A stretch of 64,000 nt of DNA from assembly GCA_030694265.1 (NCBI GenBank), contig JAUXYP010000001.1, positions 1-64,000 of the forward strand, written 5' to 3'. Source of the stretch: Sulfuricurvum sp. GTDB lineage: Bacteria > Campylobacterota > Campylobacteria > Campylobacterales > Sulfurimonadaceae. Below are positions 23,493 to 36,177 of the stretch, piece by piece. The notes under the pieces are model-generated. The model was given only the letters and a program-made list of their open reading frames with translations, did no database searches and was not told the origin of the DNA. The translations under genes were made by a program, and so were the position numbers. Numbering within the stretch: the stretch's first letter is position 1; each line of letters starts with the position of its first letter.

Positions 23493-25316
23493 ATGAATAT
23501 AAAAGAGTATACACATGAACAGCTCAAAGAGCTTTCTCAAAAAATACGGGATCGAATATTGGAAGTCGTTAGTCGTAATGGCGGACATCTGAGTTCTACC
23601 CTTGGGGCAACTGAAATTATTATTGCGATGCACAAAGTATTTGATGCCCAAAAAGACCCTTTCATCTTTGATGTTTCACATCAGGCATATGCGCATAAAT
23701 TGTTGACCGATCGATGGGATGAATTTGACACCTTACGTCAGTTTGGCGGGATGAGCGGATACACAAAACCCAGTGAATCACCATGTGACTATTTCATTGC
23801 GGGACACAGTTCTACTTCTATTTCATTGGGTGTTGGCGCCGCAAAAGCTATAGCGCTTAAAGGGGAGGAATCAACACGTATTCCTGTGGTACTGATCGGA
23901 GATGGCGCGATGAGTGCTGGTATGGTCTATGAAGCGCTTAATGAGCTTGGTGACCTTAAATACCCGATGGTGATTATCCTCAATGATAATGAGATGAGTA
24001 TTGCCAAACCAATAGGAGCGATTAGTAGGATGCTCAGTTCCGCAATGGCAAGCCCTTTTTATCAGCGGTTCAAAAAGAAAACAGAACAATTTGTGGATAA
24101 TTTTGGTGAAGGGGCCCATTATCTTGCCAAACGATTTGAAGAGTCATTTAAACTCATTACTCCCGGGATTTTGTTTGAAGAGATGGGTATTGAGTACATT
24201 GGTCCCATTGATGGTCATGATGTAAAATCTTTGATTGATATATTCACAGTAGCCAAAGGGATGGGCAAACCTGTTTTGGTACATGTGCAAACCATCAAAG
24301 GCAAGGGCTATGAAATAGCTGAGGGAAAACATGAAAAATGGCATGGCGTTTCCCCTTTTGATTTAAAAAGCGGTACTGCAAATGCTAAAAGCGGTACCAA
24401 AAGTGCAACACAAATCTATGCTGAAGCGTTAATGCATCAAGCAGACATGAATTCGAAGATTGTCGGGGTCACTGCGGCAATGCCAAGCGGGACAGGATTA
24501 AGTGCCGTCATGGAAAAATATCCTGATCGCTTTTGGGATGTTGCGATTGCGGAACAGCATGCAGTAACGTCCATGGCTGCTATGGCCAAAGAGGGGTTCA
24601 AACCGTTTTGTACGATTTACTCTACTTTTTTACAGCGGGGGTACGATCAAGTCATTCATGATGTGTGCCTAATGGATCTCCCTGTCGTATTTGCACTTGA
24701 TAGAGCGGGTATTGTTGGGGAAGACGGTGAAACACATCAGGGTGTTTTTGATATCAGTTTTTTACGCGTTTTGCCAAATATGACATTGTGCGCCCCACGC
24801 GATGAAAAATCCTTTCATCAAATAGTCTCTTTCGCGGCACAGTATGACCATCCATGCGCGATTCGTTATCCTCGGGGAGCATTTTTGGCGGCAGATCTTC
24901 CGGAATCACCCTCTTTTGTATTGGGCAAGTCGCAGCTTTTAGCTGCGAGTGATGGCGATGTATTGTTCATAGGGTATGGTAATGGTGTCGGACGTGCCGC
25001 ACAAAGTATGGAATTTATGAATGAAAAGCCTGCGTTATTAGATCTTCGTTTTGTAAAGCCGTTGGATGGGGATATGTTACGTAAAATGGCTTCTTTGCAT
25101 AAGCGCTGGTATGTCTTTAGTGATTCAGCGCGATTGGGCGGAGTTGGCAGTGCGTTGCTTGAATGGTTAAGTGAGGCAAATATTTTAGATGTAGCAGTTT
25201 TCAGCTTTGAATACGATGATGCCTTTATCAAACATGGGAATACAACTCTTGTTGAGGAATCTTTAGGGATACTTCCTGCGCAATTGGCTAAGAAGGTAAT
25301 GGACGTAATACGATAA
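23493..25316 (+). CDS. dxs: 1-deoxy-D-xylulose-5-phosphate synthase
   Basis: DXS condenses pyruvate and glyceraldehyde 3-phosphate using thiamine diphosphate, the first step of the MEP isoprenoid route. The N-terminal GGHLSSTLGATE, FDVSHQAYAHK and the ThDP motif GDGAMSAGMVYEALN are visible, and the pyrimidine domain has DVAIAEQHAVT and CTIYSTFLQRGYDQVIHDV. Length (607) is typical. It follows fliH by 12 bp, a flagellar-isoprenoid adjacency kept in related genomes. Its 3' end overlaps pgeF on the other strand by 29 bp. Confidence 0.97.
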   Translation: MNIKEYTHEQLKELSQKIRDRILEVVSRNGGHLSSTLGATEIIIAMHKVFDAQKDPFIFDVSHQAYAHKLLTDRWDEFDTLRQFGGMSGYTKPSESPCDYFIAGHSSTSISLGVGAAKAIALKGEESTRIPVVLIGDGAMSAGMVYEALNELGDLKYPMVIILNDNEMSIAKPIGAISRMLSSAMASPFYQRFKKKTEQFVDNFGEGAHYLAKRFEESFKLITPGILFEEMGIEYIGPIDGHDVKSLIDIFTVAKGMGKPVLVHVQTIKGKGYEIAEGKHEKWHGVSPFDLKSGTANAKSGTKSATQIYAEALMHQADMNSKIVGVTAAMPSGTGLSAVMEKYPDRFWDVAIAEQHAVTSMAAMAKEGFKPFCTIYSTFLQRGYDQVIHDVCLMDLPVVFALDRAGIVGEDGETHQGVFDISFLRVLPNMTLCAPRDEKSFHQIVSFAAQYDHPCAIRYPRGAFLAADLPESPSFVLGKSQLLAASDGDVLFIGYGNGVGRAAQSMEFMNEKPALLDLRFVKPLDGDMLRKMASLHKRWYVFSDSARLGGVGSALLEWLSEANILDVAVFSFEYDDAFIKHGNTTLVEESLGILPAQLAKKVMDVIR

Positions 25317-26055
25317 CTCCGGCGATACGCCCTGTATGCTGTGCATCAGCTCTGTAGGAGAAATAGTCATGGCAGTGGCATGAAGTGCATTCATCCATTG
25401 TTTCGATCTGTTCTAGAGAGATACCTAATGCTTTTAGCTGTATATGTAAAATTGTATTAACATCCAAAGAAACTTTTTCCTTTACACGTATCAACGCCTC
25501 TTCGTACCCTTTTTCTTTTACTTCATGTGCAATATTTTCATTGATCTCATAACAACACCCATGTATTGCGGGACCTAAGATGATTTGTATATCAGATACA
25601 GCGGTTCCATAGTTTTGTTTCATGGCCTCTATCGTCTTTGGCAAGATACCCTTGAGTGCTCCCTCTCGTCCTGCATGAACGGCACCAATGGCATGCTTGG
25701 TAGGATCATAAAGCAGTATGGGAGTGCAATCAGCACTCATGACCATGAGGGGTGTATCAATAAAATTGGTAATCAAGGCATCGCACTGCGGCGGTGTATT
25801 AAAGTTCATGGTTGAATTTACGATGGTAATTTTATTTGAATGAATCTGACGCATATGGACGAGATTTACGGGATTATACCCAAGCCTATCTGCCAAAATC
25901 CGATGATTTTCGAGTACATTTTGTGGATTATCTCCAACATGAAAAGCGAGATTGAGGGTACCATACGGAGAAGAAGAGACACCGCCATGTCGTGTTGTAA
26001 AATGAGCGCTTACCTGTAAGTATTGTGAGAGAAGATTTGAAGAGAGTAATGTCAT
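25288..26055 (-). CDS. pgeF: PgeF/YfiH-family multicopper-like purine nucleoside phosphorylase
   Basis: This family (formerly laccase domain DUF152) includes zinc-dependent enzymes acting on purine nucleosides, and E. coli YfiH edits peptidoglycan precursors. Seen are TTRHGGVSSSPYGTLNL, MRQIHSN, SADCTPILLYDP, AVHAGREG and GPAIHGCCYEI, which include the His/Cys zinc ligands. The usual Trp of the HAG(W)RG motif is replaced in HAGREG. Length 255. It overlaps the dxs end on the opposite strand and follows the chemoreceptor gene by 20 bp. Confidence 0.88.
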   Translation of the reverse strand: MTLLSSNLLSQYLQVSAHFTTRHGGVSSSPYGTLNLAFHVGDNPQNVLENHRILADRLGYNPVNLVHMRQIHSNKITIVNSTMNFNTPPQCDALITNFIDTPLMVMSADCTPILLYDPTKHAIGAVHAGREGALKGILPKTIEAMKQNYGTAVSDIQIILGPAIHGCCYEINENIAHEVKEKGYEEALIRVKEKVSLDVNTILHIQLKALGISLEQIETMDECTSCHCHDYFSYRADAQHTGRIAGVIVLRPLPS

Positions 26056-28144: not shown

Positions 28145-29491
28145 GTGAATAAGAGACAGATGCAATCCATCCAATTAGAGGGGTTGAGTGTAGAAGAAAA
28201 GCGTAGCGAAATACGTCGTTATTTTAACCAAAGCTTTGATCTTTTTGAATCGTTGTTTGAGCTTTTTAGGGCAGATGCGGTTTTTTATGAGCAGCCGGAA
28301 CCGACACGTCATCCTATGATTTTTTATTTTGGCCATACTGCTGTTTTCTATATCAATAAGCTTGTTTTATCCGGAGTTTTAAGCGAGGGGATCAATCCAC
28401 GCTTCGAAGCGCTTTTTGCAGTGGGCGTTGATGAGATGGTTTGGGACAATATGAACGAGCATTTTGAGGGCTTTGGGGTGCAGACAGTGCGAGAATATCG
28501 CAAAGCAGTTCGCACCTGTGTGGATGAACTCATACTGCAATTACCTCTTACGCTTCCGATCACGCAATCAGACTCTTTTTGGGCAATACTTATGGGATGT
28601 GAGCATGAGCGTATACATATAGAAACTTCTAGTGTTTTACACCGTCAGATGCCTCTTGAATTGATTCAAAGCCATGAGGATTTTGCCTTGTGCCCATTGA
28701 GGGGTGAGGGCCTTGAAAATACGATGGTGGCGATTGAAGGTAAAACGATTACTTTGGGTAAAGGCGCTGAAGATCATGGGCTGTATGGATGGGATAACGA
28801 ATACGGGACTGCTACGTATGAAGTAGATGATTTTGAGGCGTCGCTTTATTTGGTAAGTAACGGAGAATATTTGGATTTTGTCAATGCAAACGGGTATAAA
28901 ATACAACGTTGGTGGGATGATGAGGGGCTGAAATACTTATCCATTCGGGAGGCTACGTGCCCTCCGTTTTGGATACCTAAAGAGGATGGCAGTTACACGT
29001 ATCGTTCGCTAACGCAGGAGATAGAAATGCCTTATAATTGGCCAGTAGAGGTTAATGCTCTCGAAGCACAGGCATTTTGTCGATGGAAAAGTGCTCAAGA
29101 GGGGATAAACTATCGTCTTCCAACGGAAGCGGAGTATGGGGTACTGCTTGATGAATGCGGCATCGTGAGTGATATTTTTGATGATAGTACAGCAAACCTC
29201 AATCTTGCTCATTTCGCTTCATCGGTGAGCGTAGATACTTTTTTTCACGGCAAAGTGTACGATGCTATAGGTAATGTATGGCAATGGACGAGTAGTACCA
29301 TGGATGGATTTGAAGGGTTCGCACCCCATGTGTTATATGACGATTTTTCAGTACCGACATTCGACACGAAACACAATATCCTTAAAGGGGGATCTTGGAT
29401 CTCAACGGGTAATGAGATTGTGAGAGCTTCACGCTACGCATTTAGACGCCATTTCATACAGCATGCCGGATTTCGCTACGTGGCTGATTGA
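28145..29491 (+). CDS. ovoA: 5-histidylcysteine sulfoxide synthase (OvoA), without methyltransferase domain
   Basis: OvoA is a non-haem iron enzyme that couples cysteine to C5 of histidine with oxygen, the first step to ovothiol. An N-terminal DinB-like domain (about 15-165) carries the iron ligands His64 (YFGH) and the HxxxHxE pair His154 and His158 (CEHERIHIE). The FGE-sulfatase-like domain (about 185-445) ends with the OvoA pattern GGSWISTGNE and RRHFIQHAGFR. Known OvoA proteins of about 700 residues have an added C-terminal N1-methyltransferase; here the protein stops after 448. The start is GTG with GAGGA 8 bp upstream. Its stop overlaps the next gene as TGATG. Confidence 0.88.
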   Translation: MNKRQMQSIQLEGLSVEEKRSEIRRYFNQSFDLFESLFELFRADAVFYEQPEPTRHPMIFYFGHTAVFYINKLVLSGVLSEGINPRFEALFAVGVDEMVWDNMNEHFEGFGVQTVREYRKAVRTCVDELILQLPLTLPITQSDSFWAILMGCEHERIHIETSSVLHRQMPLELIQSHEDFALCPLRGEGLENTMVAIEGKTITLGKGAEDHGLYGWDNEYGTATYEVDDFEASLYLVSNGEYLDFVNANGYKIQRWWDDEGLKYLSIREATCPPFWIPKEDGSYTYRSLTQEIEMPYNWPVEVNALEAQAFCRWKSAQEGINYRLPTEAEYGVLLDECGIVSDIFDDSTANLNLAHFASSVSVDTFFHGKVYDAIGNVWQWTSSTMDGFEGFAPHVLYDDFSVPTFDTKHNILKGGSWISTGNEIVRASRYAFRRHFIQHAGFRYVAD

Positions 29492-30666
29492 TGGGTGAAT
29501 TCGATTTTATTGACCGGTCACAAAGCAATGCCGAAAAGTATACATTAAAACAGAAGCTATTTGGTACACAAGAGGTGCTGCCGATGTGGGTTGCTGACAT
29601 GGATATTGCGACACCGGCATGTGTTTTAGATGCCGTACGCCATCGTTTAGAGCATCCGATTATCGGGTATGAAATTATGAGTGAACACGCGTATGAAGCG
29701 CAGTGTGATTGGGTAGCGCGCCATCATAGATGGTCTATAAGCGCAGAGTGGTTGAGTTACTCTCCTTCGGTTGTGGCATCGATCGGATGTGCTATTCGAG
29801 CGTTTAGCAATGAGGGGGATGAAGTAATTGTTCAAAGCCCAGTATACCCGCCGTTTTACGAAATGGTTCGCAGTAACAATCGAAAATTGGTACTTAATCC
29901 GCTTGTTCAAGATAATCAGGGAGAGTATCGCTTTGATTTGGAAGATTTAAAGGCGAAGATTACCCCTAAAACAAAACTCCTATTACTCTGTTCTCCACAT
30001 AATCCAGTGGGACGCGTTTGGTCACGTGAAGAGTTGACGGCTCTTGGAGAACTGTGCGTGCAAAATGGTATTATCATCATCAGTGATGAGGTCCACTGTG
30101 ACATCGTTTTTAGCGAAAACACCCATATTCCATTGGCATCGATATCGCCAATTTTAGGTGAAAATACGGTGACTTTGATGGGCCCTGGAAAAACATTTAA
30201 CATGGCCGGATTTTCGATCTCTACGGTGGTTATTGCGTCGTCAGTATTGCGTGAGCGTTACCGTATACAACAGCATAAAATTCATTATGGGGACGGTGCT
30301 GTATTATCGCATGTAGCTTTTGAAGCGGCATATAGGCAGGGGGAACTATGGCATGAGAATTTGTTGAATCATTTGACGCTCAATCGAACAATGATTGAGC
30401 AATGGTGTGTGGCACATCCTATCATCGGATTTCGTAAGCCGCAAGGAACCTATCTTGTGTGGTTAGATTGCCGTGCGTTGAAGATGGGTGACCGAGAGTT
30501 ACGGGATTTTTTTGTACAAGAAGCGGGATTGGGTCTTAGTGCCGGTCTTGGTTTTGGAAAAGAGGGATCGGGATACATGCGTTTGAACTTTGCGGTTGCA
30601 ACCGAAATATTGGAGCGAGCCTTGAATCAATTATCGAATGCTCTGAAAAGAAACGGTTATGGATGA
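29491..30666 (+). CDS. MalY/PatB-type PLP C-S lyase, probable OvoB
   Basis: This fold type I PLP enzyme matches the MalY/PatB cystathionine beta-lyase group: LPMWVADMDIATP near the N-terminus, CSPHNPVGRVW, ISDEVHCDI, and the PLP lysine Lys234 in MGPGKTFNMAG. The ATG at 29491 shares its A with the ovoA stop. In ovothiol synthesis a PLP lyase, OvoB, cleaves the histidylcysteine sulfoxide to 5-thiohistidine; a MalY-type lyase coupled to ovoA fits this job. The alternative is general cystathionine or cysteine desulfurisation. The OvoB role rests on position and family, not on a diagnostic residue. Confidence 0.85.
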   Translation: MGEFDFIDRSQSNAEKYTLKQKLFGTQEVLPMWVADMDIATPACVLDAVRHRLEHPIIGYEIMSEHAYEAQCDWVARHHRWSISAEWLSYSPSVVASIGCAIRAFSNEGDEVIVQSPVYPPFYEMVRSNNRKLVLNPLVQDNQGEYRFDLEDLKAKITPKTKLLLLCSPHNPVGRVWSREELTALGELCVQNGIIIISDEVHCDIVFSENTHIPLASISPILGENTVTLMGPGKTFNMAGFSISTVVIASSVLRERYRIQQHKIHYGDGAVLSHVAFEAAYRQGELWHENLLNHLTLNRTMIEQWCVAHPIIGFRKPQGTYLVWLDCRALKMGDRELRDFFVQEAGLGLSAGLGFGKEGSGYMRLNFAVATEILERALNQLSNALKRNGYG

Positions 30667-31069
30667 GAAGATAGGGAAATTTATTTCCAAACATCATTTG
30701 CTCTCTTTGGCTACTTTTGGAGAGTCATTATGGTGCTGTTCGGCTTTTTACGCCTATGATTGTGATGCAAGGGCATTCATTATTGCATCGGATGAACAAA
30801 CAGTCCACATCCAAAACAGTAAGATCAATATCCGTGTGGCCGGTACCATAGCGCAAGAAACAAACATTGTCGGCAAAATACAGGGGATACAGTTTACGGG
30901 AGAGATAAGGCGTGTTATGGATGAGCAAGAAAAGGAGCTTTATCTGGATAGATTTCCGTATGCAAGAGTGATGAATCCGATACTGTGGAAGATAAAACTT
31001 GATACGATTAAAATGACGGACAATACGCTGGGATTTGGAAAAAAACTTATTTGGAATCGGGAAATTTAG
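30659..31069 (+). CDS. UPF0306 (YhbP-like) flavin-type split-barrel protein
   Basis: This 136-residue protein resembles the YhbP/UPF0306 branch of the pyridoxamine-phosphate-oxidase split-barrel fold: FISKHHLLSLAT, WCCSAFYAYD, FIIASDEQTVHI and GKIQGIQFTGEI. It overlaps the lyase gene by 8 bp and is thus the third member of the ovoA operon. Family members are thought to bind flavin or related cofactors, but function is unknown. Within this operon a redox or accessory role in thiol-histidine metabolism is a guess. Confidence 0.72.
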   Translation: MDEKIGKFISKHHLLSLATFGESLWCCSAFYAYDCDARAFIIASDEQTVHIQNSKINIRVAGTIAQETNIVGKIQGIQFTGEIRRVMDEQEKELYLDRFPYARVMNPILWKIKLDTIKMTDNTLGFGKKLIWNREI

Positions 31070-31257
31070 AGGTAAAAAAACTGCACAGTTTTCCGCTGGA
31101 GCTCAAAACAACTTGAGAGGGGAGAAATTTACTTTTAAACCCATACGCCTTACATCCATGGGGTTGATGGGCCTCCCAAGTGACAAAATAATAGGTACAT
31201 CGGTGACAATTGATTTTTTGCATAGGGAATTTTACCTATAATTTCTTTAATGAAAAA
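31070..31257. other. intergenic region between the ovoA operon and the repeat
   Basis: No credible gene is seen. The stretch contains a small hairpin (CTCAA near 31107 with TTGAG near 31116) and, close to its right end, a TATAAT box at 31237-31242 that could serve the dUTPase gene. Several frames are open across it in both directions, which signals low stop density rather than coding. The structured repeat copy B follows. Confidence 0.4.
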
Positions 31258-31326
31258 TCTGCCCAATAGGGCAAGCTTTAGTGCCATAGCGGCAAGCGCA
31301 GCCAAAGGGATGTATTCCTTTGGCGT
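31258..31326 (-). repeat. structured dispersed repeat, copy B
   Basis: This is the inverted partner of 9359-9430. The first hairpin pairs CCTTTGGC at 31317-31324 with GCCAAAGG at 31301-31308. The terminal stem pairs TGCCC at 31260-31264 with GGGCA at 31269-31273. On the minus strand the terminal stem is followed by GATTTTT, so a transcript in that direction could end here. It lies in the leader of the dUTPase gene, which reads the other way. Confidence 0.75.
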
Positions 31327-31351
31327 TTTCAATAATGATAAAAGGATATTT

Positions 31352-32038
31352 ATGAATAAATTGCTCTGTATGTTTGAACTTCAGCAAGAACTTAATGATT
31401 CGACCAATGGAAATGGGTGGGAAAACGGGATAACCAAGAATGGTAAAAAGATCAATTGGCGCCGTTGTATTACGATGGAATCTGCAGAGATGATCGACTC
31501 CTTCGGATGGAAACATTGGAAAAGCATTGCCCAAGAGACAGATTATGCAAATCTGCAAATTGAAATCGTCGATGTGTGGCATTTTGTGATGAGCTTAGTA
31601 CTAGAATTCGCCCATAAGACGGGTACGGAGAGCATCAAAGAGTTGGTTGAGAGAATATCTCAAACACCTGAGTATCAAAAAATAAATAATGATACTGAGT
31701 TGAGTTTTGGAAGTGATGACCTTCTTTTGTACCGTATAGAAAACGTTATGCGTCTTTCCCTTATCCCTGTTTCTCCTGAGATGATTGGTGCGCTGATCGA
31801 AGAATTTTTCGAATTGACCCAGTTGGGAGCACTTAATGCGACACAATTGTATCGTTTGTATGTGGGTAAAAATATTCTCAATCAATTTCGTCAAGATCAT
31901 GGATACAAAGAGGGAAGTTACATCAAAGTATGGAATGGGGAAGAGGACAATGTCGTTATGAAGCGTGCTTGGGATGAAAATCCTGATATGAGTCCGACCC
32001 AATTATACGATGCACTTAAATCAGCTTATCCTGCATAA
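31352..32038 (+). CDS. dut: dimeric all-alpha dUTP diphosphatase
   Basis: This protein matches the dimeric, all-alpha NTP pyrophosphatase type of dUTPase known from Campylobacter, not the trimeric type. The metal ligands are visible as ESAE (Glu43, Glu46) and EIVD (Glu71, Asp74), with the FGWKHWK and KVWNGEEDN segments typical of the family. It removes dUTP and supplies dUMP. The ATG at 31352 with AAAGG upstream is the start; an upstream in-frame ATG at 31250 would translate through the repeat and is rejected. Length 228. It overlaps lpxL convergently by 13 bp. Confidence 0.9.
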   Translation: MNKLLCMFELQQELNDSTNGNGWENGITKNGKKINWRRCITMESAEMIDSFGWKHWKSIAQETDYANLQIEIVDVWHFVMSLVLEFAHKTGTESIKELVERISQTPEYQKINNDTELSFGSDDLLLYRIENVMRLSLIPVSPEMIGALIEEFFELTQLGALNATQLYRLYVGKNILNQFRQDHGYKEGSYIKVWNGEEDNVVMKRAWDENPDMSPTQLYDALKSAYPA

Positions 32039-33950: not shown

Positions 33951-34859
33951 ATGGTTGTTCAAGACATACAGCAGTTTTCTGAAATTCGCCCAAAAGCACG
34001 AGCCTATTTCTGTTATCTTTTTCATAAAAACCTTCCCAATCATCTTCCCTCGGTTTCGGCGGAGTCTATTACTGCGCGCTTGCTTAAAATTCGTGGCGAT
34101 CTGCAGGGTGTGGAAGCGATGTATTTACTTGATCCTGCCGGAAATCAGGTAGGTCCTACTTATCTTAAAGAGGGGAAAAAGGAAGAAGATATAGGTAAAA
34201 ATCGTTCTACGAGAGCGTATTATTACCGTGCGATGCATGAGCGTCGATGCACCATTACCGATCCGTACCCCTCATTACTCAATGATGAACTTACCGTAAC
34301 GGCATCCGAGCCTATCTTTGATGAAAATGGCGATATTATCTATGTTGCTTGTTTGGATATGCCCTTGGCCGAGGTTCTTAAAATCGCGCATCCTATGGCC
34401 CTTGAATCAAATGCAGGACGGTTCTTTCGATGGGTATATGCCGGATTTACCGTTGCTTTGGCATTTGTTTCTTTGCTCCTTTTTGTAAAAGGGATTGAAG
34501 GCTTTTTGTCGTATGGAGTTGGGAATCTTGAGAGTATTGAGATTAAAGATATTTTTGAATCTACTATTTTACTTACCTTGTCTCTGGCTATATTCGATTT
34601 AGTCAAAACACTTTTTGAAGAAGAAGTATTGGGGCGACCAAAACATGATCCGAGTTCCAGTATTCACAAAACAATGGTCCGTTTTTTAGGGTCTATTATT
34701 ATCGCTCTTTCGATTGAAGCGTTGATGCTGGTCTTTAAATTTGCAATGACGGAACCTGCTATGCTGGTAAATGCTATTTACATCATAGCAGGGGTGGCGA
34801 TGTTGTTGATTGGTCTTGCCATGTATATCCGTTTTACCAATCTGGGAGAGCGCCATTGA
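33951..34859 (+). CDS. PDC-sensor domain membrane protein
   Basis: The N-terminal part (about 30-145) resembles a PDC/Cache sensor: LKIRGDLQGVEAMYLLDPAGNQV, then RAYYYRAMHERRCTITDPY and SEPIFDENGDIIYVACLDM. Four membrane segments follow, near 160-187, 203-222, 247-268 and 274-295. There is no membrane segment or signal before the sensor and no kinase, cyclase or methyl-accepting output domain. The start at 33951 is supported by GAAGAGGATGAGG just upstream. Similar proteins occur in Campylobacterota without known function. It overlaps hisH by 4 bp. Confidence 0.75.
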   Translation: MVVQDIQQFSEIRPKARAYFCYLFHKNLPNHLPSVSAESITARLLKIRGDLQGVEAMYLLDPAGNQVGPTYLKEGKKEEDIGKNRSTRAYYYRAMHERRCTITDPYPSLLNDELTVTASEPIFDENGDIIYVACLDMPLAEVLKIAHPMALESNAGRFFRWVYAGFTVALAFVSLLLFVKGIEGFLSYGVGNLESIEIKDIFESTILLTLSLAIFDLVKTLFEEEVLGRPKHDPSSSIHKTMVRFLGSIIIALSIEALMLVFKFAMTEPAMLVNAIYIIAGVAMLLIGLAMYIRFTNLGERH

Positions 34860-35467
34860 TAGCGATTGTTGATTACAATATGGGGAATCTGGCCAGCGTT
34901 CGCAATGCATTTGACGTGCTGGGTGAGAAAGTTGTGATTGAATCCGATCCTGAAAAACTAGCGCAGTACGATCGAATTATATTGCCGGGTGTGGGTGCTT
35001 TTGGTGATGCTATGGAACATTTGAAAACCAATGGAATGGATGAAGCTGTCACTCAATACGCTCAGAGTGGAAAATACGTCCTAGGGATTTGTTTAGGTAT
35101 GCAGCTTTTGTTTGATTCGAGTGAAGAATTTGGGATCACTTCAGGGTTGGGATTAATTCCGGGCCGGGTGGTCGCTTTTGATTCAAGCCGTTTTCACACG
35201 CCTCTAAAAGTACCTCATATGGGGTGGAATCGAATGCTTACTCATGGTCATACTCTTTTTGAAGGGCTTGATGATGGGCATTATCTTTATTTTGTCCATT
35301 CTTATCATGCATTGTGTACGCACGAAGAACACAGTATTGGTGAATGTATTTACGGATATAAATTTACCAGTGCTGTTGCTCGCGACAACGTAATGGGAAT
35401 TCAGCCACACCCTGAAAAAAGTCACGACAATGGGCTTCGCATACTTAAAAATTTTATAACTCTATAA
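34856..35467 (+). CDS. hisH: imidazole glycerol phosphate synthase subunit HisH
   Basis: HisH is the glutaminase that feeds ammonia to HisF. The oxyanion and nucleophile region [10 protein letters not shown] contains catalytic Cys80, and the His-Glu pair is in QPHPEKS near the C-terminus. The opening [11 protein letters not shown] is typical. Length (203) is normal. It overlaps the membrane protein gene by 4 bp and is followed by hisA after 11 bp; hisF is not in the window. Confidence 0.96.
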
Positions 35468-35478
35468 AGGACATACAT

Positions 35479-36177
35479 ATGACTATTTTCCCCGCAATCG
35501 ACCTCAAAGACGGTAAGGCGGTTCGTCTCACCAAAGGGTTGATGGAAAGTGCAAAAATCTATTCAGATACACCATGGGAACTGGTAAAAACGTTTGAAGA
35601 GATGGGGGCGCAATGGGTCCATTTGGTGGATCTAAACGGTGCATTCGCAGGTGAACCAAAGAATTTGGATCAAATTCGCGCTATTCGTGAAAATTGTAAA
35701 GTGAAACTTCAGCTAGGTGGTGGAATCCGTGATGAAGCAACGATTAAACGTTATCTTGATTTGGGTATTGATCGACTCATTTTGGGATCGATTGCCTTAC
35801 GTGATCCTGAGTTTGTCAAAGCAATGGCGGCAAAATACCCGATTGTTGTCGGTATTGATGCGATCGATGGATATGTTGCGGTTGAAGGATGGGGGGAAGT
35901 TAGCTCTATGCGAGCAACCGATTTGGCACGCATGTTCGCGGATGCGGGGGTACAAGCTATAATTTGTACGGATGTTGGACGTGACGGTACACTTTCTGGC
36001 GTAAATGTCGATTTTACCCTTGAAATTGCACGAGCATGTGGAATCCCGACCATTGCTAGCGGTGGAGTAAAGGATGACAACGACATTGAGTCTCTCTTAA
36101 AAACGGGGGAAGTTGCAGGTGTTATTGTTGGAAAAGCATTTTATGAGGGAACAATTGACTTAAAACGATTTTTTTAA
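35479..36177 (+). CDS. hisA: phosphoribosylformimino-AICAR phosphate isomerase HisA
   Basis: HisA catalyses the Amadori isomerisation before HisF/HisH. It is a (beta/alpha)8 barrel with two phosphate-binding half-barrel motifs: LQLGGGIRD and IASGGVKD. The catalytic aspartates are in [13 protein letters not shown] and [12 protein letters not shown]. Length (232) is normal. It follows hisH by 11 bp. Confidence 0.96.

Follow-up and report, generated by a model that had tools for sequence, protein, structure and literature searches.

Ovothiol is an antioxidant, and the locus described here raises the question of how far its biosynthesis proceeds in one bacterium of the genus Sulfuricurvum. The window, namely the whole stretch of 64,000 nucleotides that was analysed, is part of a 2.15-Mb, 23-contig Sulfuricurvum sp. 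genome, and encodes a short OvoA-type protein, a C-S lyase and a UPF0306-like protein in three coupled genes (Table 1). According to the preliminary description of this DNA, the OvoA has no methyltransferase domain, and the pathway would end at 5-thiohistidine rather than ovothiol A unless a methyltransferase is encoded elsewhere. The analyses performed here point, with high probability, to a split ovothiol A pathway: OvoA and OvoB are encoded in the window, OvoM is encoded on contig C11, where it is fused behind an ADP-ribosylglycohydrolase (ARH) domain by the loss of a stop codon, and the UPF0306 gene is a mere neighbour.

Table 1. Features of the ovoAB site and of the ARH-OvoM reading frame in the Sulfuricurvum sp. 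genome
Feature	Location	Strand	Length (aa)	Basis
PgeF/laccase-domain protein, flanking gene	window, 25288–26055	−		TIGR00726 185.9 bits; synteny
ovoA, predicted 5-histidylcysteine sulfoxide synthase without C-terminal methyltransferase domain	window, 28145–29491	+	448	TIGR04344, PF03781, 8khq
ovoB candidate, PatB/MalY-type PLP C-S lyase	window, 29491–30666	+	391	TIGR04350, position
YhbP/UPF0306-like split-barrel protein	window, 30659–31069	+	136	best model NF002900
dUTPase, flanking gene, outside the pathway	window, 31250–32038	+		PF08761 100.7 bits; synteny
ARH-OvoM reading frame	own genome (G000), contig C11, 166376–168217	+	613	PF03747 and TIGR04345

OvoA and the C-S lyase of the window

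In the profile search, the product of the first gene matches TIGR04344 with 611.4 bits (cut-off 400) and PF03781 with 93.9 bits. The end of the TIGR04344 domain coincides with the end of the protein at residue 448, so that the absence of the methyltransferase domain was correctly described. The nearest solved structure is OvoA 8khq (501 bits), and the EgtB-IV entries score clearly lower. Residues 2–446 are aligned with residues 9–454 of the 728-residue OvoA, and the iron-ligand histidines, His64, His154 and His158, are located at the corresponding positions, as had been read directly from the sequence. An assignment to EgtB, which was considered beforehand as a possible refutation, was rejected according to the TIGR03440 score (154 bits, cut-off 360) and the genome search, in which no EgtD match was found; the model scores and the absent EgtD also rule out an ergothioneine pathway. 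The scores for the SenA models also fall well short of the respective cut-offs. These results indicate that the first gene encodes a bona fide OvoA, and the sulfoxide synthase reaction is predicted accordingly from its family. The start codon of ovoA is GTG, and translation could alternatively begin at the in-frame ATG at 28160. Among the 41 Sulfuricurvum genomes, 40 have a match to the N-terminal part of OvoA, and an intact methyltransferase domain was found within the OvoA frame in none. In genome G360, OvoA and OvoB form one reading frame of 795 residues (L379:574–2961) with the junction partly missing, as a natural fusion or an assembly error. A second, divergent OvoA-like protein without the methyltransferase domain is encoded in G163 (L206:3241–4614), and its TIGR04344 score (355 bits) is below the cut-off.

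The product of the second gene matches TIGR04350, the PatB family of C-S lyases, with 542 bits (cut-off 340), and its PLP lysine is Lys234 within GPGKTFNMAG. The lyase gene adjoins ovoA across Sulfuricurvum and in several other families. Judging from the subfamily and the position, the protein fits OvoB, as was proposed, and the substrate is predicted. In genus g6, where OvoA lies about 1.4 Mb away, a lyase resembling OvoB is still located near the UPF0306 and dUTPase genes (L393, L394). The coupling of the three genes is confirmed by the coordinates of the reading frames: the ATG of ovoB is located within the TGATG overlap with ovoA, and ovoB and the UPF0306 gene share an 8-bp overlap. The order ovoA-ovoB-UPF0306 is retained throughout Sulfuricurvum, and thus the cluster is not a product of chance. 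About 4 kb downstream of ovoAB, reading frames resembling hisH and hisA by eye are present at 34856–36177 of the window; histidine is the substrate of OvoA.

A methyltransferase on another contig

The profile search of the genome gave one match above the cut-off of TIGR04345 (OvoA C-terminal domain/OvoM; 311.5 bits, cut-off 170), which is located on contig C11. The methyltransferase corresponds to residues 371–612 of the reading frame, and the N-terminal half matches PF03747 at residues 15–334 (124.2 bits, cut-off 26.2). The nearest solved relative of the methyltransferase is the "5-thiohistidine N-methyltransferase OvoM" 9bxl (382 bits). Over the aligned native residues, 9bxl is identical to the stand-alone OvoM of Sulfuricurvum genome G362, and thus a separately encoded OvoM is already known structurally from this genus; a literature search found no dedicated paper on OvoM or on ovothiol in Sulfuricurvum. 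The separate methyltransferase of the OvoA C-terminal type, for which a search of the genome had been suggested, is therefore present, and because it is encoded on another contig, 5-thiohistidine as the end point has no support for this genome. We infer the following reactions. OvoA would join the C5 of histidine to cysteine as a sulfoxide, OvoB would cleave off the cysteine part and give 5-thiohistidine, and the OvoM-type methyltransferase of contig C11 would methylate the N-π atom with SAM, resulting in ovothiol A. Two observations speak against the split reading: ovoM lies apart from ovoAB, and no recognizable methyltransferase is present in 17 Sulfuricurvum genomes.

ARH and OvoM are in one frame only in the window's genome, and OvoM stands alone in the relatives. 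Compared with genome G356, the stop codon of the ARH gene is lost by a change from TAA to GAA (AAAAAATAAC in the comparison with AAAAAAGAAC). The fusion junction is AAAAAAGAACAAAGGGATACTGTGAAT, the counterpart in G356 is AAAAAATAACAAAGGGATAGGATGAAT, and the OvoM start is GTG here. The comparison indicates that ARH and ovoM formed a conserved operon of two genes and became fused when the ARH stop codon was lost. The internal GTG start and the upstream AAAGGG may still permit the synthesis of a separate OvoM. As one genome and one base are concerned, a sequencing error is a possible source of the fusion. The pairwise dN/dS values of 0.03–0.11 for both halves indicate purifying selection, and they rule out a relic or pseudogene. 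The fusion is not a trait of the genus, as a stop codon lies between the two genes in every relative examined.

OvoM is encoded in 19 of the 41 Sulfuricurvum genomes, and in 15 of these 19 the ARH gene is located directly upstream of ovoM, with gaps from about −4 to +25 bp or, in the window's genome, fused. In G354 the two genes are at facing contig ends, and in G362, G372 and G390 ovoM has no adjacent ARH gene. The order at the site is conserved as endonuclease III, ARH, ovoM, dnaX, murI and rho; in G342, which has no OvoM, dnaX is beside endonuclease III. Using the fusion protein as the query, no methyltransferase match was obtained in 17 of the 41 genomes, many of which are approximately 100% complete, and these presence and absence calls hinge on the E-value thresholds and the genome completeness. 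Since no match is present, 5-thiohistidine is a possible end product in these 17 relatives, so that the end point proposed for the window may hold there. Four more genomes have only a degenerate C-terminal methyltransferase, which retains motif I but lacks the conserved C-terminal region, and G386 has a degenerate methyltransferase together with OvoM. In many of the OvoM-less genomes, a Methyltransf_16-like protein or a cupin adjoins dnaX (L411:49–702, L418:54–707, L412:338–697). The 217-residue methyltransferase near dnaX in OvoM-less genomes was set aside as a substitute, as it is Methyltransf_16-like and reading frames of similar size are located beside ARH in some OvoM-positive genomes. 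In G350, G352 and G400, OvoM shares about 70% identity with its counterpart in the window's genome, and the adjacent ARH shares 89–94% (L188, L191, L183), which would fit a replacement of OvoM alone.

The maximum-likelihood tree groups the Sulfuricurvum OvoMs in a single clade (96/92) within the methyltransferase domains of OvoA from the same family, and the nearest domains, those of genus g85, are placed with weak support. In the OvoA tree, the clade of the four genomes with only a degenerate methyltransferase branches first (96/88). The genomes with short OvoA are split into OvoM-bearing and OvoM-less lines, with five to seven label changes over the bootstraps. A simple reading, in which the direction is presumed, is that a fusion came first, the fused methyltransferase then decayed, a separate OvoM was used and later losses followed. 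In G244, which belongs to another family, OvoA with a degenerate methyltransferase and a separate methyltransferase of 246 residues are encoded (L213; L214:3983–4723), as a second, independent split.

End product, third gene and ARH partner

That the pathway stops at 5-thiohistidine in this genome, with OvoA and OvoB acting alone and the distant methyltransferase inactive or otherwise used, is very unlikely. The short OvoA of the window agrees with such an end point, and so do the 17 genomes with no match, the four with a degenerate domain, and a truncated OvoA co-encoded with an acetyltransferase that is recorded in Bacteroidota (PMC12631010). Nevertheless, the methyltransferase on contig C11 scores well above the curated cut-off, is close to a solved 5-thiohistidine N-methyltransferase and is under purifying selection, and all three features favour the split ovothiol A pathway. 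The preliminary description also included the UPF0306 protein in the cluster. Its best model is YhbP NF002900 (142.8 bits, E = 6e-42), and as the cut-off is 176, the UPF0306 name is a sub-threshold assignment; PF01243 gives 20.9 bits (cut-off 28.1), and no solved structural relative was found in the search. A function as the third member of the operon, for example as a flavin-dependent reductase or a thiohistidine carrier, would suit the overlap with ovoB, the co-directional location downstream of OvoA in 38 of the 40 OvoA-bearing Sulfuricurvum genomes, and the distance of 8 kb or less from OvoA in 70 of the 86 family genomes with full-length OvoA. However, the gene is present in 145 of the 151 genomes of the same family, and in the family members G049, G063 and G034, which have no ovoAB, it is still beside the dUTPase gene. 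In genus g6 it stays with dUTPase and did not follow OvoA over 1.4 Mb, and none was seen near OvoA among the sampled loci of the order's other families. Therefore, such a function is unlikely, and the gene was set aside as a pathway member. The position claimed for it is kept across the genus, whereas its tie to the pathway is weakened by the dUTPase neighbour in members without ovoAB. The link to ovothiol looks positional, and UPF0306 would be a neighbour that has long adjoined the ovoAB site. The PgeF gene is the opposite flank of the site in the relatives, and the simplest account is that ovoAB either occupies or has been lost from an old gene neighbourhood, with PgeF/DXS on one side and UPF0306-dUTPase on the other.

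The ARH domain belongs to a subfamily with the motifs TTDYGD and GGDNASR, of which GGDNASR is invariant in both alignments. The members share about 80% identity even between very different bacteria, and the predicted model (mean pLDDT 76) matches the ARH3 fold with a Z score of 29 over 293 residues. In genus g85, an ARH-family gene is located between ovoB and the UPF0306 gene (L227:4134–5834). A sirtuin gene (PF02146) adjoins the ARH-family gene in L227, the one locus read, which suggests NAD/ADP-ribose chemistry near ovothiol genes. A third ARH-family type immediately precedes OvoA in G070 and G226 (L215:9408–10478, L244:4502–5365). OvoA is above the cut-off in 23 of the 33 genomes retrieved with the ARH query.

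It is quite possible, if somewhat short of probable, that ARH and ovoM are unrelated genes that merely share a locus. Outside Sulfuricurvum the same subtype is mostly located away from ovo genes, all seven Verrucomicrobiota-titled genomes with the subtype have no OvoA, and ovoM without an adjoining ARH gene occurs in the three genomes mentioned above. Against a bystander, ARH is present in 16 of the 19 OvoM-positive and none of the 21 OvoM-negative Sulfuricurvum genomes. In the order sample, where the subtype was assigned by frame length and bit score, OvoA is encoded in 11 of 11 genomes with the subtype and in 114 of 288 others. Among the Planctomycetota-titled genomes with the subtype, OvoA is present in eight of nine, compared with 8/199 (about 4%) in the phylum sample, which includes two ARH-bearing genomes; the phylum titles were given by the submitters, and metagenome bins make up many of the records. 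In two further groups, other ARH-family genes are also located in or beside ovo loci. Fisher tests on the co-occurrence gave small p-values, in which shared ancestry is ignored. These counts suggest that the subfamily and OvoA occur together more often than chance would predict, both in Campylobacterales and in Planctomycetota. The probable role of the ARH partner is in thiohistidine/ovothiol chemistry or linked NAD/ADP-ribose chemistry. A more specific proposal, which we make tentatively and with considerable doubt, is that the altered-motif subfamily is a dedicated ovothiol partner, which might strip ADP-ribose or ribose off thiohistidines or connect ovothiol with NAD chemistry and which is joined to OvoM in Sulfuricurvum as an operon and here as one protein, and that nearly half of the genus uses 5-thiohistidine as the end product.

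Few 5-thiohistidine-recognizing enzymes are known, and finding them is needed to learn the role of ovothiol (PMC12631010). With its occurrence following that of OvoA across phyla, and its fusion to OvoM in one genome, the ARH family supplies a concrete candidate for such an enzyme. Sulfuricurvum also offers a natural comparison, since closely related genomes differ in whether they have the methylation step.

Comparison with known systems

In the bifunctional OvoA (5-histidylcysteine sulfoxide synthase/4-mercaptohistidine N1-methyltransferase; 8KHQ), the sulfoxide synthase half matches the window's protein end to end, including the three iron histidines, whereas the methyltransferase half is absent from this chain and is found on another contig. 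The second gene resembles OvoB, a PLP-dependent C-S lyase of the PatB/MalY type, in its family and its location directly downstream of ovoA, although the TIGR04350 model is not specific for OvoB and the substrate is predicted. In the Bacteroidota clusters with a 5-thiohistidine N-acetyltransferase (PMC12631010), OvoA of some members also has no methyltransferase domain, and 5-thiohistidine has an alternative fate; in contrast, the window locus shows no acetyltransferase, and the genome has OvoM. The ARH half resembles the ADP-ribosylglycohydrolases (ARH3, DraG; PF03747) in the whole-domain fold and the family score, but GGDNASR replaces the canonical GGDTDT metal-site motif of ARH3, and TTDYGD is also altered. 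The closest known proteins to the methyltransferase half are the discrete OvoM entries 9BXL, 9BXM and 9BXN, from which it differs by its fusion behind the ARH domain, the two genes being adjacent in the relatives. The ovothiol pathway and the discrete Sulfuricurvum OvoM (in the PDB) were thus known already, and the variant found here is OvoM fused to ARH.
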